39,638 nucleotides of DNA, from positions 1 to 39,638 of the forward strand of contig JAJYJM010000004.1 in the NCBI GenBank assembly GCA_021789495.1, given 5' to 3'. Positions 28,968 to 35,579 of the stretch are shown here, in pieces. The position numbers and the translations under genes were made by a program. Source of the stretch: Nitrospirota bacterium (GTDB lineage: Bacteria; Nitrospirota; JACRHJ01). Below the pieces are notes generated by a model, which was given only the letters and a program-made list of their open reading frames with translations, was not told the DNA's origin and made no database searches. Each line of letters starts with the position of its first letter. Position 1 is the stretch's first letter.

Positions 28968-29756
28968 TTATAACGCCGCCTGAAGGCTCGTAAGTTCCCG
29001 CAGTTTCTTACCGAAATCCTTCTCACGCATAAGCGCCTCGCCTATGAGCGCCGCGTCCGCGCCGACGGATTTCAGGAACTTCAAATCATCCCTCGTCGAG
29101 ATCCCGGATTCGCTTACAACAACCCTGTCCATCGGTATCTCCTCTATCAGGTATTCGGTGTTTTTTATGTCAACGTCGAAGGTCTTAAGGTCCCGGTTGT
29201 TTATCCCGATTATTTTAAACGTCAAATCGAGAACCTTGTCAAGGTCGCCCTCGTCGTGCGTCTCGGCCAGCGCCTCCATTCCAAGCTCTTTCCCAAGGAG
29301 GTAGAGGTCCTCCATCCGGCCCTGTTCAAGGATGGATGCGATGAGCAGGAATGCATCCGCGCCGTTTGCGCGCGCCTCGTAGACCTGATATTCGTCGAAT
29401 ATGAAGTCCTTGCGGAGCACCGGGATTCCTATGCTGCCGGAAATCCATTTGAGGTAGCCGATGTCGCCCCGGAAATATTTTTTCTCGGTCAGGACCGAGA
29501 CGGCGCGCGCGCCGTTTTCTTCGTACGTGCGGGCTATGGAAACGGGGTCGAAGTCCGGACGGATAAGGCCCTTCGAGGGCGACGCCTTTTTCACCTCGGC
29601 GATTATGGAGACCGCGTCCTTGTCTATCAGCGCGGCGGCGAAATCCATTGCAGGGCGCGCATCCGCCGCCATCGCCTTAATCTCGGAAAACGGCAGGCGG
29701 GCCTTCACGTCCTTAAGCTCCTCTCTCTTGTCCGCGACAATCCTCTGGAGAATCAC
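28968..29756 (-). CDS. trpC: Indole-3-glycerol phosphate synthase
   Basis: Closes the indole ring from CdRP. A 262-residue TIM barrel with the family motifs SIIAEVKKASPSKG, the RKDFIFDEYQVYEARANGAD stretch at residues 115-135, GINNRDLKTF and VVSESGI. The start is GTG at 29756, overlapping the toxin stop (GTGA). Its ribosome site GAGG lies inside the last codons of the toxin gene, so trpC translation is coupled to that of the toxin. Confidence 0.96.
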   Translation of the reverse strand: MILQRIVADKREELKDVKARLPFSEIKAMAADARPAMDFAAALIDKDAVSIIAEVKKASPSKGLIRPDFDPVSIARTYEENGARAVSVLTEKKYFRGDIGYLKWISGSIGIPVLRKDFIFDEYQVYEARANGADAFLLIASILEQGRMEDLYLLGKELGMEALAETHDEGDLDKVLDLTFKIIGINNRDLKTFDVDIKNTEYLIEEIPMDRVVVSESGISTRDDLKFLKSVGADAALIGEALMREKDFGKKLRELTSLQAAL

Positions 29757-30007
29757 CTGTAAGCCTCGCGCCGGTGCTTGATGCGCATAACTCTGATTTC
29801 TTTTTCGTTCTCTCTTATTTCATAAACTATTCTATAATCTCCTACCCGGACTCTCCAATCGGACATTGAACCAACAATTTTCCTGCTACCTCTCGGCCTT
29901 GGATTTTCGGCAAGACTTTTTAGCTCTTTTGTTACTCTCGTGAAAAGGCTTTTAGGAAGCTTATCCAAATCCTTTTCGGCCGCTGGTGCAAGAAGGACCT
30001 CATGCAC
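29753..30007 (-). CDS. RelE/ParE-family toxin, embedded in the trp operon
   Basis: An 84-residue toxin of the RelE/ParE superfamily. It has the helix-hairpin start LLAPAAEKDLDKLPKSLF and the conserved C-terminal strands DWRVRVGDYRIVYEI and RVMRIKHRREAYR, with the Arg/Tyr residues expected for a RelE-type mRNA interferase. The GTG start overlaps the antitoxin stop by 8 bp. Its own stop overlaps the trpC start. The region is visibly AT-richer than trpC and trpD on either side, which suggests acquisition. The family is sure; the target (ribosome-bound mRNA or gyrase) is not. Confidence 0.93.
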   Translation of the reverse strand: MHEVLLAPAAEKDLDKLPKSLFTRVTKELKSLAENPRPRGSRKIVGSMSDWRVRVGDYRIVYEIRENEKEIRVMRIKHRREAYR

Positions 30008-30206
30008 TTTTTTCTCTATCCTTTAAATAATCATCTAAACTGCGAAACTTAACCGGTTTTTTTCTCATCTCCTGGAGTTCTTTCAAATCTTCAATATCTT
30101 CAAGCTTCTCCAGCATTTTTTCATACCGGTCTATATCAAGGATAACCGATACCGGTTTGCCTCCTCGATAGACCATCTCCGGTTTTTTCTTTGCGTTGCT
30201 TCTCAT
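30000..30206 (-). CDS. Antitoxin of the RelB/Phd-like type
   Basis: A 68-residue cognate antitoxin. I start it at ATG 30206, which has a near-perfect ribosome site (GGGAGG, 6 nt away). A longer frame from 30284 would overlap trpD and is less likely. The N-terminal half (PEMVYRGGKPVSVILDIDRYEKMLEKLEDI) looks like a Phd/YefM-type DNA-binding fold, and the acidic and basic C-terminal tail (KFRSLDDYLKDREKSA) would wrap the toxin. It lies 22 nt after the trpD stop. A weak promoter (TTGATT-16-TAAACT, 30284-30257) lies inside the end of trpD. Confidence 0.9.
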   Translation of the reverse strand: MRSNAKKKPEMVYRGGKPVSVILDIDRYEKMLEKLEDIEDLKELQEMRKKPVKFRSLDDYLKDREKSA

Positions 30207-30228
30207 TAATTGCCTCCCGCTTTCTTGC

Positions 30229-31278
30229 TTAATTTCCAACGCCGATAATCCGCTCAAGTTTATTATGCGCCGCGCCGGAATCAATCGACTCCGCCGCCTT
30301 TGCCATGCCGTCTTTTATCGACGATGCCATGCCGCCGATATAAATCGCCGCACCGGAATTCAGAAGGACAATGTCGCGCCTCGGGCCTTTCTCGCCTTTC
30401 AGGACGGCGCGTATAATCTCCGCGTTCTTTTTTGCATCCCCGCCGCGAAGCCCGTCGGCTGAGGAAATCTCTATACCGTAATCGCGCGGGTCGAGAATAA
30501 ACGTATGCACGGCAGCGTCCTTAACCTCCGAAATCCGGCTCTCGCGCGTAACGGTTATCTCGTCAAGGCCGTCCATGCCGTGCACTACCATCGCCCGCTT
30601 CGTTCCGAGATTAAGCAGAACGTGCGCGAGCTTGTCCGTCAGGTCGGCCTCGTAGACACCCATCACCTGGGCGTTCGCGCCCGCCGGGTTGGAAAGAGGG
30701 CCAAGCAGGTTGAATATCGTCCTGATGCCTATCTCGCGCCGTGGAATAAGGGCGTGTTTCATGGCGGAGTGCAGAAGCGGCGCGTAAAGGAAACCGATTC
30801 CTATCTCGTCCACGCACCGCCCGACTTCTTCCGGCGTCATGTCGAGATTCACGCCAAGCTCGCCCAGGACGTCCGCGCTCCCGCAACACGAAGACACGGC
30901 GCGGTTCCCGTGCTTGGCCACCTTTATCCCCGCGCCCGCCGCGACGAACGCGCAGGTGGTGGAAATGTTGAACGTGCCGGTAGAGTCTCCGCCCGTGCCG
31001 CAGGTATCGAGTATCGTCTCAAGGTCGAGGTTTATGTCGTCGTGGTCTATCGACACGGGACGCGATTTAATCGGTATGCGGGTGGCTTTCTTTCGCATGA
31101 CGCGCGCCGCGCCGGTTATCTCGTCTATCGTCTCGCCCTTCATCCGGAGCGCGGTGATGAAAGAGGCGATAAGCGCATGGGAGGCCTCGCCCTCCATTAT
31201 CTCGCGCATCGCGGATTCCATCTCCTCTTGGGAGAGGTTCCGGCGCTCGACAACTTTTAATATAGCGTCCTTTATCAT
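30229..31278 (-). CDS. trpD: Anthranilate phosphoribosyltransferase
   Basis: Transfers phosphoribose from PRPP to anthranilate. The 349-residue protein has the PRPP-binding [18 protein letters not shown], the KHGNRAVSS loop, the [12 protein letters not shown] motif and the Asp/Glu pair in GLDEIT. Length is standard. It lies 50 bp after trpG, the gap filled by a REP-like sequence, and 22 nt before the toxin-antitoxin pair. Confidence 0.96.
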
Positions 31279-33481: not shown

Positions 33482-33519
33482 GGAGTTAAAGCTTTTTGCC
33501 GCATGAAGGGAGGGAGAGA

Positions 33520-34080
33520 ATGAGAACAAATTATATCGGTAAGGCGTTTCAGGCGAAGACGGCGCTTAACACCGGTATTATGATCATGGCTTCAGCCGCG
33601 GTCTTGAGCGCAGCAATATACATGTTTCTCAATGAAGACATAAGCGGCGGATTCTCCGAAGCCCTCCAGACCATAGAAACCCTGAGGTTCAGCCTGCCTT
33701 TCGCAATCGGCCTGTCCGAGGCCGCCGCCCTGGGTATCCTGACAATGGGGATAATCGTCCTGGAGCTTTTTATGTCCCACAGGCTCGCCGGACCGCTCTG
33801 GAAGATGGAAAGAACGGCGCTTCAGGTCGCCGGGGGCGATCTGTCGTCGGACGTCAACCTGAGGGAAAAAGACGAGGCGAAGGAACTCGCCGTCCAGGTA
33901 AATTCCATGATACTCGGCCTGCGTGAAAAGGTATCCGGCATACGCGAGGCATACGCCGTGCTGGACGAATGCGCCCGGAGGTTAAAATACGCCTCCGAGG
34001 CGGAACGCGGCGCGATTTTAAGCGAAGCGCATACGGCGGCGGGCGAGCTTTTAAGCAGGCTGGAGTTGATAAGGACTTAA
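33520..34080 (+). CDS. HAMP-domain membrane protein without output domain (upstream of the cytochrome)
   Basis: A 186-residue membrane protein starting at ATG 33520, which has a strong ribosome site (GGAGGGAGAGA). Two hydrophobic segments lie at about 21-40 and 62-85 and enclose a short periplasmic loop of only about 20 residues. A HAMP domain follows (SHRLAGPLWKMERTALQV ... LREKDEAKELAVQVNSMI), then a helix to the end. No kinase, methyl-accepting or cyclase domain is present. It starts 123 nt from the divergent trpE. It precedes the seven-haem cytochrome by 16 bp and is paralogous to the HAMP protein on the other side. Confidence 0.88.
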   Translation: MRTNYIGKAFQAKTALNTGIMIMASAAVLSAAIYMFLNEDISGGFSEALQTIETLRFSLPFAIGLSEAAALGILTMGIIVLELFMSHRLAGPLWKMERTALQVAGGDLSSDVNLREKDEAKELAVQVNSMILGLREKVSGIREAYAVLDECARRLKYASEAERGAILSEAHTAAGELLSRLELIRT

Positions 34081-34096
34081 AATTAAGAGGAAAAAA

Positions 34097-34972
34097 ATGC
34101 GCCGGACATACCTGCTCGCAATCCTGGCGACCGCCGTTGCAGCCGCCGCTTTCGCCACGCAATACGGCAATAACCCGAACCCGCACGCCTTCACGCAGTC
34201 GGACTGCTTCTCATGCCATTTCACGCTTCCCACGGAAGGCAGCAGCGAGCCGCTCCGCTTCACCGATACCATTACCAACCTGTGCGCGCGCTGCCATGAC
34301 ATGTCAAAGACAATATCGCACCAGGTGGACATAGTGCCGTCGAACCGCGTAAACATCCCTCCCGACATGCCGCTCGACTCACAGGGAAGGATAACCTGCG
34401 TCACCTGCCACGACATCCATGAGGCCTATATCAACCCCCTGACGGGCCGGAGGACTTATTTCCTGAGGCGCGACGTAATCGGCAAGAGCTTCTGCATCAC
34501 GTGCCACAATACGGAGGAAGGCATCAAACAGATACAGATGGATTCGCCCGAGGCTGATGTAAACGAGAACAGCACGTCCGTTCAATTCCACTGGACGGTG
34601 ATGAACAAAAGCCACGGATTCGCCAATTTTGACGTCATAGACCAGAGCGCGGACATCGACCCCCTCTCTCTTGCCTGCCTCGACTGCCACGGCGACGGCA
34701 CAGACCAGAAAACCACCCTGAATATCGGCGTCTTCAATCATGCCGAAGCCGACATCGGCCTGTCTCACCCGATAGGCGCGGATTACGAAACCGAGGCGGA
34801 CGGCAGGGACGATTACGTCCAGGTGGAAAACCTCGACAAAAGGCTTAAGCTGTTCGACGGGAAGATCGGCTGCTGCACCTGCCACGACCCTTACAGCAGC
34901 CAGGTCGACGCCCTGGTAATCGGCACGCCGGACAGCTACCAGGATCTATGCCTCGCCTGCCATATAAAATAG
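34097..34972 (+). CDS. Seven-haem periplasmic cytochrome c
   Basis: A 291-residue protein with a signal peptide (MRRTYLLAILATAVAAAAFA) and seven CxxCH haem-binding motifs whose first Cys is at residues 37, 63, 101, 133, 194, 259 and 285. Extra His residues suited to distal ligands include His30, His75, His108 and His224. It is not a close match to NapC, NrfA or the classic four-haem c3 by eye. It may belong to the doubled-CxxCH (cytochrome c7/NHL-like) class. It should act in the periplasm in electron transfer. It lies between two HAMP membrane proteins with 16- and 10-bp gaps, so the three form an operon. Confidence 0.93.
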   Translation: MRRTYLLAILATAVAAAAFATQYGNNPNPHAFTQSDCFSCHFTLPTEGSSEPLRFTDTITNLCARCHDMSKTISHQVDIVPSNRVNIPPDMPLDSQGRITCVTCHDIHEAYINPLTGRRTYFLRRDVIGKSFCITCHNTEEGIKQIQMDSPEADVNENSTSVQFHWTVMNKSHGFANFDVIDQSADIDPLSLACLDCHGDGTDQKTTLNIGVFNHAEADIGLSHPIGADYETEADGRDDYVQVENLDKRLKLFDGKIGCCTCHDPYSSQVDALVIGTPDSYQDLCLACHIK

Positions 34973-34982
34973 GAGAGACCCG

Positions 34983-35579
34983 ATGGAAAACATTTCCGGA
35001 CAAAGACGCTGCAGGAGACGGAACTATTTCATCAAGAAAGGTTTTCAGTCCCGGTTCGTCGCAAGGTTTCTGGCCCTGGGCGCAGCAGGTTTCGCGGCGG
35101 CGGGATATTTCGTCTACCGTTCCGTAAGCCGGAAAGCGGAGGACCTCTTTTACATGAGCCATATCCGGGTAACCAGCACCTCGGCCCTTGTTATCCCGGC
35201 CCTCCTGAAGGTCAATTTCTGGGTCATGCTCCTGGTCCTGGCGGCGGTCGTAGCGGCCGTGCTGATTATATCGCAGAGACTTACAGGGCCGATATTTCGG
35301 CTCGGCAAGGCGGTTGAAAGAATAGGAAGCGGAGACCTGACCGGCAGCTTCGAGCTCCGCGCGGGAGACGAACTGAAAAGCTTCGCCGACTCGTTCAACA
35401 CGATGAACGGCAGCTTGCGCGAGCAGTTTACGGACATGAAGCGCGAGGCGTCCGCAATAGAATCGTATTCCGGGAAAATGCTTGAAGCGGGAAGGGCGAC
35501 AAAGGAAGAGGCGGAGGATTTCTACAGGCTCTCGTCCGTCTTCGGAAAGAGACTCGATAATTTTAAAATCGGGAGATAG
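34983..35579 (+). CDS. HAMP-domain membrane protein without output domain (downstream of the cytochrome)
   Basis: A 198-residue membrane protein. The N-terminus is basic, and two hydrophobic segments (about 27-45 and 77-98) bracket a short periplasmic loop (about 30 residues). A HAMP domain follows (SQRLTGPIFRLGKAVERI ... LRAGDELKSFADSFNTMN), then an amphipathic helix (EQFTDMKREASAIESYSGKM) to the C-terminus. It lacks any kinase or methyl-accepting domain. AGGAGAG precedes the ATG. It shares architecture with the protein at 33520, so the pair may form a hetero-oligomer around the cytochrome. Function is unknown. Confidence 0.88.
   Translation: MENISGQRRCRRRNYFIKKGFQSRFVARFLALGAAGFAAAGYFVYRSVSRKAEDLFYMSHIRVTSTSALVIPALLKVNFWVMLLVLAAVVAAVLIISQRLTGPIFRLGKAVERIGSGDLTGSFELRAGDELKSFADSFNTMNGSLREQFTDMKREASAIESYSGKMLEAGRATKEEAEDFYRLSSVFGKRLDNFKIGR

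Follow-up and report, generated by a model that had tools for sequence, protein, structure and literature searches.

Two output-less HAMP proteins flanking a seven-haem cytochrome c form a conserved gene unit in Nitrospirota and other bacteria

The three genes of the window and their products

The window, the whole analysed stretch of 39,638 nucleotides, comes from a draft Nitrospirota genome (2.08 Mb, 97% complete) that holds several further multihaem genes outside the cassette described here. Three genes follow one another on its forward strand: HAMP-A (33520-34080, 186 aa), preceded on that strand by a purine-rich ribosome-binding-like sequence (33508-33519); a seven-haem c-type cytochrome (34097-34972, 291 aa); and HAMP-B (34983-35579, 198 aa), which carries the N-terminal signature RRRNYFIKKGFQ. 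The intergenic gaps measure 16 bp between HAMP-A and the cytochrome and 10 bp between the cytochrome and HAMP-B. The open reading frame coordinates agree with the initial annotation, which had described two small HAMP proteins flanking a seven-haem cytochrome at this spacing, and matches to PF00425 and PF04715 confirmed its naming of the divergent neighbour of HAMP-A as trpE. The trp neighbourhood was considered as a functional context and rejected: among the examined loci it was seen only in the genus/family of the window, and in one genome (G005) the cytochrome remains at trpE with the HAMP genes gone from that site, so the trp context is incidental. Within the trp operon of the window, a ParE/Phd-type toxin-antitoxin pair lies between trpD and trpC (29756-30284); this pair is apparently absent from a genome of the same genus (G002).

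Both HAMP-A and HAMP-B have a TM-TM-HAMP-coiled coil architecture. PF00672 matched residues 84-135 of HAMP-A (33769-33924, forward strand, with the entry motif SHRLAGP) at 38.6 bits (E 1.4e-9) and residues 96-145 of HAMP-B (35268-35417, forward strand) at 32.0 bits (E 1.6e-7), so the HAMP assignment held in both proteins against the Pfam cut-off of 25. No Pfam domain other than HAMP was found in either protein, in keeping with the claim that they lack an output domain; the HAMP domain is followed by a helix of ~50 aa, and a kinase, chemoreceptor or cyclase output domain was absent after it from every copy examined. Alignment of the two family profiles with hhalign (99.9% probability, E 2.8e-33, 193 columns) extended over the whole length and upheld the view that the two proteins are paralogous. 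The HAMP domain is divergent across the family, with a PF00672 match at E <= 0.001 in 24/63 HAMP-B and 17/56 HAMP-A relatives, and HAMP-typical residues (G91, P92, R115, D118 and N128 in HAMP-A; G117 in HAMP-B) are kept at 25-30% identity. Neither protein contains a CXXCH motif or a histidine within its predicted TM segments.

The AF2 model of HAMP-B (pLDDT 81.5) comprises a helix at residues 19-57, a turn at 58-65 that contains His60 (codon 35160-35162, forward strand), and a helix at 66-115 that runs into the HAMP domain, past whose connector come AS2 and then the C-terminal coiled coil. The TM helix-AS1-connector-AS2 layout is thus present in the model (helix 66-115, gap 116-131, helix 132-169). 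HAMP domains are generally located in the cytoplasm, and this location, together with the positively charged N-terminus RRRNYFIKK, would place the 58-65 turn of HAMP-B on the periplasmic side, with His60 at the hairpin tip. Against the PDB, the HAMP-B profile matched the HAMP regions of HtrII, MCP, NarQ and AF1503, and a Foldseek search with the HAMP-B and cytochrome models gave no match at E <= 0.001. The histidine of the entry motif (SHRIAGP) is kept in 93% of HAMP-A proteins and in 30/32 HAMP-B proteins unlinked to a cytochrome, against 19/102 cytochrome-linked HAMP-B proteins; this asymmetry between HAMP-A and HAMP-B suits a heterodimer.

The cytochrome begins with a hydrophobic N-terminus, which may be either a cleaved signal peptide or a retained anchor; its relatives often have a hydrophobic N-terminus of their own. 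Its seven haem motifs, all on the forward strand, are CFSCH (residues 37-41, 34205-34219), CARCH (63-67, 34283-34297), CVTCH (101-105, 34397-34411), CITCH (133-137, 34493-34507), CLDCH (194-198, 34676-34690), CCTCH (259-263, 34871-34885) and CLACH (285-289, 34949-34963). All seven CXXCH motifs are retained across 78 aligned cytochromes. Seven additional histidine columns accompany them, of which H30, H75, H108, H165, H173 and H224 (window numbering) are conserved at 99-100% and H215 at 85%, a pattern that points to bis-His ligation of all seven haems. Since the seven distal histidines match the seven haems in number, the protein would be expected to serve in electron transfer or redox storage, not in catalysis. 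It matched PF09699/PF14522 (doubled-CXXCH, c7/c3 kind) above the cut-offs, at 51.3 and 37.9 bits, and all 63 cytochrome relatives matched the same kind; PF03264 (NapC/NrfH quinol dehydrogenase) had no match in the cytochrome and was not among the families matched by the 63 relatives. Searched against the PDB as a single sequence and as a profile, the cytochrome returned fragmentary matches only, and the AF2 model, which is moderately confident (pLDDT 76), gave no significant PDB fold match, its best Foldseek hit being OmcE at E 1.7.

Conservation and genomic surroundings of the unit

One-per-species genomes were searched with the cytochrome alignment alone, and the 80 seven-haem loci obtained were scanned with profiles of the three proteins. 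The results showed both HAMP genes in 70 of the 80 loci, on the same strand as the cytochrome, with HAMP-A always upstream and HAMP-B always downstream. In L149 and L152 the HAMP genes were hidden by over-long ORF starts, which raises the full unit to 72/80 loci; of the remaining eight, two are cut by contig ends, one is without HAMP-A and five are without either HAMP gene. HAMP-A and the cytochrome gene overlap by 4 bp at 45 of the 71 junctions measured. A separate draw of 198 Nitrospirota genomes yielded 36 seven-haem genes, 33 of them with at least one adjacent HAMP gene, under a strict E cut-off at which HAMP-A was under-detected. Co-occurrence of HAMP-only genes with seven-haem cytochromes, for which the initial annotation had suggested a search across genomes, was observed in both samples.

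The record titles of the carriers name Nitrospirae/Thermodesulfovibrionia, Deltaproteobacteria/Desulfuromonadales/Desulfobulbaceae, Aminicenantes and Omnitrophota, and the unit spans Nitrospirota, Desulfobacterota/Desulfuromonadia, Aminicenantes and Omnitrophota. In Malonomonas and some other carriers (L126, L144) no HAMP gene lies beside the cytochrome. Where it stands alone, the HAMP-A/HAMP-B pair can sit elsewhere in the genome with its two genes still adjacent, as in G005 (C21, C48) and in G067, there with a 4-haem cytochrome. These results indicate that the HAMP-A-cytochrome-HAMP-B unit is real, widespread and present in many gene contexts. No family in Pfam or NCBIfam describes it, and nothing describing it was found in the open-access literature on HAMP domains with multihaem cytochromes; an existing description of the triplet had been named in advance as grounds for giving up the proposal. 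The parts are of known kinds, which current domain libraries name merely HAMP and doubled-CXXCH proteins, and their combination has no entry in the libraries searched.

Among 75 wider loci, an outer-membrane-barrel-like protein, an NHL protein and an ~11-haem cytochrome lie near the cassette in 10, a protein with at least 10 haems and more than 400 aa in 28, a 4-haem cytochrome in 18 (usually immediately after HAMP-B) and a PPIase in 7. In about 10-20 related loci the genes next to the cassette resemble those of the Undecaheme electron transfer (Uet) clusters of Tenderiales and Gallionella, which comprise an 11-haem cytochrome, a porin, NHL proteins, a PPIase and small cytochromes (PMC10734462). 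The two differ in that HAMP genes are not named in that Uet description (PMC10734462), and the likeness, in 10/75 loci, is one of architecture. A Uet-type 11-haem cytochrome, outer-membrane barrel and NHL genes are absent beside the cassette of the window. In Nitrospirota and Desulfuromonadia the unit marks out a characteristic set of genes in the vicinity of electron-conduit clusters. The Uet-like clusters beside a cassette (L133, L136, L143, L146, L150, L151, L154, L155, L160 and L161; Nitrospirota and Desulfobacterota/Desulfuromonadia) contain a small multihaem cytochrome, a barrel-like protein of ~650 aa without a Pfam match, an NHL protein and an ~11-haem cytochrome.

The hairpin tip of HAMP-B and the wider HAMP-only family

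Among 102 cytochrome-linked HAMP-B proteins the tip residue is His in 86 and Met in 14 (100/102), compared with His in 3 and Met in 2 of the 32 unlinked ones (5/32). It is His in all 19 HAMP-B proteins with a 4-, 5- or 9-11-haem partner, two of the 19 having been assigned by hand. Hand reassignment from the unlinked class concerned L056, L078, L109, L212 and L213, in which the partner lay on another contig, was overlapped by an over-long ORF or fell beyond the 350-bp rule. Fisher's test of tip His/Met against cytochrome linkage gave p 1.7e-5 after clustering at 35% identity, a value that we do not treat as valid, because linkage changes only three times on a HAMP-B tree built without the tip columns. 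The association therefore reflects conservation within a few clades, not many independent events, and we treat it as a lead, not proof.

Distal haem ligands are usually His or Met, and the tip is a candidate haem contact or ligand. There is precedent for both elements of such an arrangement: in OmcS and OmcE a haem is ligated by a His of the neighbouring subunit (PMC9473688), and in GSU0935 redox-linked on/off ligation by a Met above a HAMP domain has been proposed (PMC8396549). The seven-haem protein carries seven candidate distal histidines of its own, so an eighth ligand from HAMP-B is not needed. We also considered whether His60 of HAMP-B complements a missing H215 in the cytochrome; the direction fits (no locus lacks both), the loss pattern was not significant (p 0.19), and the idea was set aside.

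Beyond the cassette, HAMP-B-like proteins occur in fixed gene sets with 4-, 5- and 9-11-haem cytochromes, SurA-like isomerases and pilin-like proteins. Two of the cytochrome partners are suggestive, though not conclusive, in their ligand count: the 4-haem cytochrome has four CXXCH motifs against three invariant distal histidines, and the 5-haem cytochrome has five haems against four invariant non-motif histidines, one of them possibly structural (Fn3-like domain). In L162 the set consists of HAMP-A, HAMP-B and a 4-haem cytochrome. The 4-haem cytochrome frequently encoded after HAMP-B (L104:3233-3658 and 15 relatives) looks like the first half of the seven-haem protein. The 5-haem cytochrome (~310-400 aa, with a purple-acid-phosphatase-N/Fn3-like insert) lies directly upstream of one HAMP-only protein with an invariant tip His (L170, L173, L175, L177, L191, L194, L196, L197, L216, L217, L220 and L221). 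The 9-11-haem cytochromes beside a HAMP-only protein carry a conserved CXXCK in L210, L215 and L223, which resembles the lysine-ligated haem of NrfA, and CXXCN in L214.

A second conserved set has no cytochrome: a SurA-like PPIase/lipoprotein, a HAMP-only protein and a secreted protein of ~180 aa are tightly packed in L052-L055, L182-L190, L193, L198 and L205, and the tip His is missing from nearly all of these, the exceptions being L184 and L205. Pilin-like proteins (FTLIEL/FTLVEL) adjoin and sometimes overlap HAMP-only genes (L057:6297-8056, L192, L199, L201), and in G005 the order is HAMP-A, HAMP-B, pilin.

A proposed membrane complex and competing readings

The three proteins very probably form one inner-membrane complex, the safest step of our reading and one well supported by the fixed gene order, the 4-bp overlaps and the taxonomic breadth. 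HAMP-A and HAMP-B would each contribute one hairpin to an asymmetric four-TM bundle with cytoplasmic HAMP domains, and the heptahaem cytochrome would sit on the periplasmic face of this bundle. The tip of HAMP-B (His60; Met in some relatives) would touch, and might ligate, one haem; we consider the contact somewhat probable, and ligation in trans doubtful. Such a contact could couple the redox state of the cytochrome with the conformation of the HAMP bundle. As no copy has an effector domain, one has to assume either that the HAMP state is sensed in trans, perhaps by a HAMP-containing kinase of the sort frequently found near the unit, or that it gates electron flow. A HAMP heterodimer that docks a bis-His cytochrome and whose tip couples haem state to HAMP conformation is our best explanation of the whole, held tentatively, and redox signalling as the biological role is conceivable at slightly lower confidence. 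The fullest version, in which the output-less heterodimer is a redox-gated membrane relay with the tip His/Met as an axial ligand in trans, and in which the HAMP-only family has adapted to 4-, 5-, 7- and 9-11-haem partners, we regard as unlikely. The sequence is compatible with information passing inward from the haem, outward from the cytoplasm to the cytochrome, or in neither direction. The redox-sensing membrane complex of the initial annotation is supported as a complex, and the reading of haem state by the HAMP pair has one indirect line of evidence, the tip His/Met, with about three switches on the tree and no output found.

The accepted task of a HAMP domain is to hand a signal on to an output. 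A widely conserved pair of output-less HAMP proteins tied to multihaem cytochromes would, if true, mean either a device for reading or gating electron flow in the envelope or the use of HAMP as a structural module. Many of the carriers are poorly studied bacteria, and the unit suggests an undescribed membrane complex in them, one in which a membrane relay may be linked to haem state. The tip His/Met is a single-residue prediction and directly testable.

Several known systems share elements with the proposed complex. The haem MCPs GSU0582 and GSU0935 of Geobacter also combine periplasmic c-type haem, two TM helices and a HAMP domain, and their signal has been proposed to be a change of ligand linked to redox state (PMC8396549). 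They bear the haem on the HAMP chain and have an MCP output, whereas in the present unit a distinct protein carries the seven haems and a coiled coil alone follows the HAMP domain. In the sensory rhodopsin II-HtrII pair, sensor and TM-TM-HAMP transducer are different proteins, the first acting on the second, and the HAMP-B profile matches the TM2-HAMP region of HtrII (2f95_B, E 5e-12); the partnership here is one of gene linkage only. HtrII differs in its membrane photoreceptor sensor and its cytoplasmic signalling rod, the MCP signalling domain being absent from HAMP-A and HAMP-B. AF1503 of Archaeoglobus is likewise a receptor-like protein that ends in a HAMP domain without an effector (profile match E about 2e-6), but it is a single protein with a large extracellular domain, in contrast to the periplasmic turn of ~8 residues in HAMP-B. 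AF1503 is not known to have a cytochrome partner.

In the strongest rival there is no signalling: the HAMP coiled coils serve only to keep a heterodimer together, and this dimer tethers the heptahaem cytochrome to the inner membrane, where the cytochrome exchanges electrons with donors or acceptors in the membrane on one side and with cytochromes of the periplasm or outer membrane on the other. The initial annotation had offered such an anchor as its alternative, and it remains a serious rival, possible if less probable than the redox-coupled complex. It accords with the barrel-like, NHL and 11-haem genes, the proteins with at least 10 haems and the 4-haem cytochromes near the cassette (10, 28 and 18 of the 75 loci, as above), with the all-His ligation predicted for the cytochrome, with the lack of an effector domain anywhere, with the weak PF00672 scores of most members and with the SurA-like and pilin-like partners. 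The conservation of HAMP-typical residues at 25-30% identity, however, goes beyond the needs of a plain anchor, and the cytochrome often brings its own hydrophobic N-terminus. Multihaem cytochromes are also held at the inner membrane in CbcA/CbcL and NapC/NrfH/CymA, where a b-type cytochrome or a NapC-type anchor is used. The present unit differs from these in the missing PF03264 match and TM histidines; a membrane subunit of the CbcBA/CbcL b-type cytochrome kind was found neither as a domain of HAMP-A or HAMP-B nor as a further gene of the unit.

The SurA-like isomerase and pilin partners of sister HAMP-B proteins, which have no redox role, count against the redox-coupled complex, as do the poor HAMP scores of many family members and the five of 80 seven-haem genes with no HAMP gene beside them, and they make an assembly role possible. 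The HAMP-B family would then assist the maturation, retention or positioning of an exported protein encoded alongside (cytochrome, pilin or SurA substrate), the redox link being incidental. The fixed groupings of HAMP-B relatives with pilin-like proteins, or with a SurA-like PPIase and its ~180 aa secreted companion, speak for this, as does the PPIase near the cytochrome in 7/75 loci. Against it, the tip His/Met is mostly confined to proteins with a cytochrome partner, and some genomes, Malonomonas among them, keep the cytochrome with no HAMP gene beside it; we consider such a scaffold improbable.

In a further rival, control would run inside-out: the HAMP pair would respond to conditions in the cytoplasm or membrane and switch the cytochrome's access to its electron partners on or off, much as LapD acts on LapG. 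This reading could draw on the established HAMP-driven inside-out signalling of LapD (PMC4359373), on the ~50 aa C-terminal coiled coil available to a cytoplasmic partner and on histidine kinase (HK) or response regulator (RR) genes in 23/75 loci (a raw count without a background rate, the genes being sometimes divergently adjacent), but it too is improbable, with a ligand-binding domain absent on the cytoplasmic side and no cytoplasmic partner gene conserved across the loci. Close to some cassettes, HKs with one periplasmic CXXCH are encoded (L087:9348-10811, L091:1515-2966, L097:747-2582), and these may be covalent-haem sensors.
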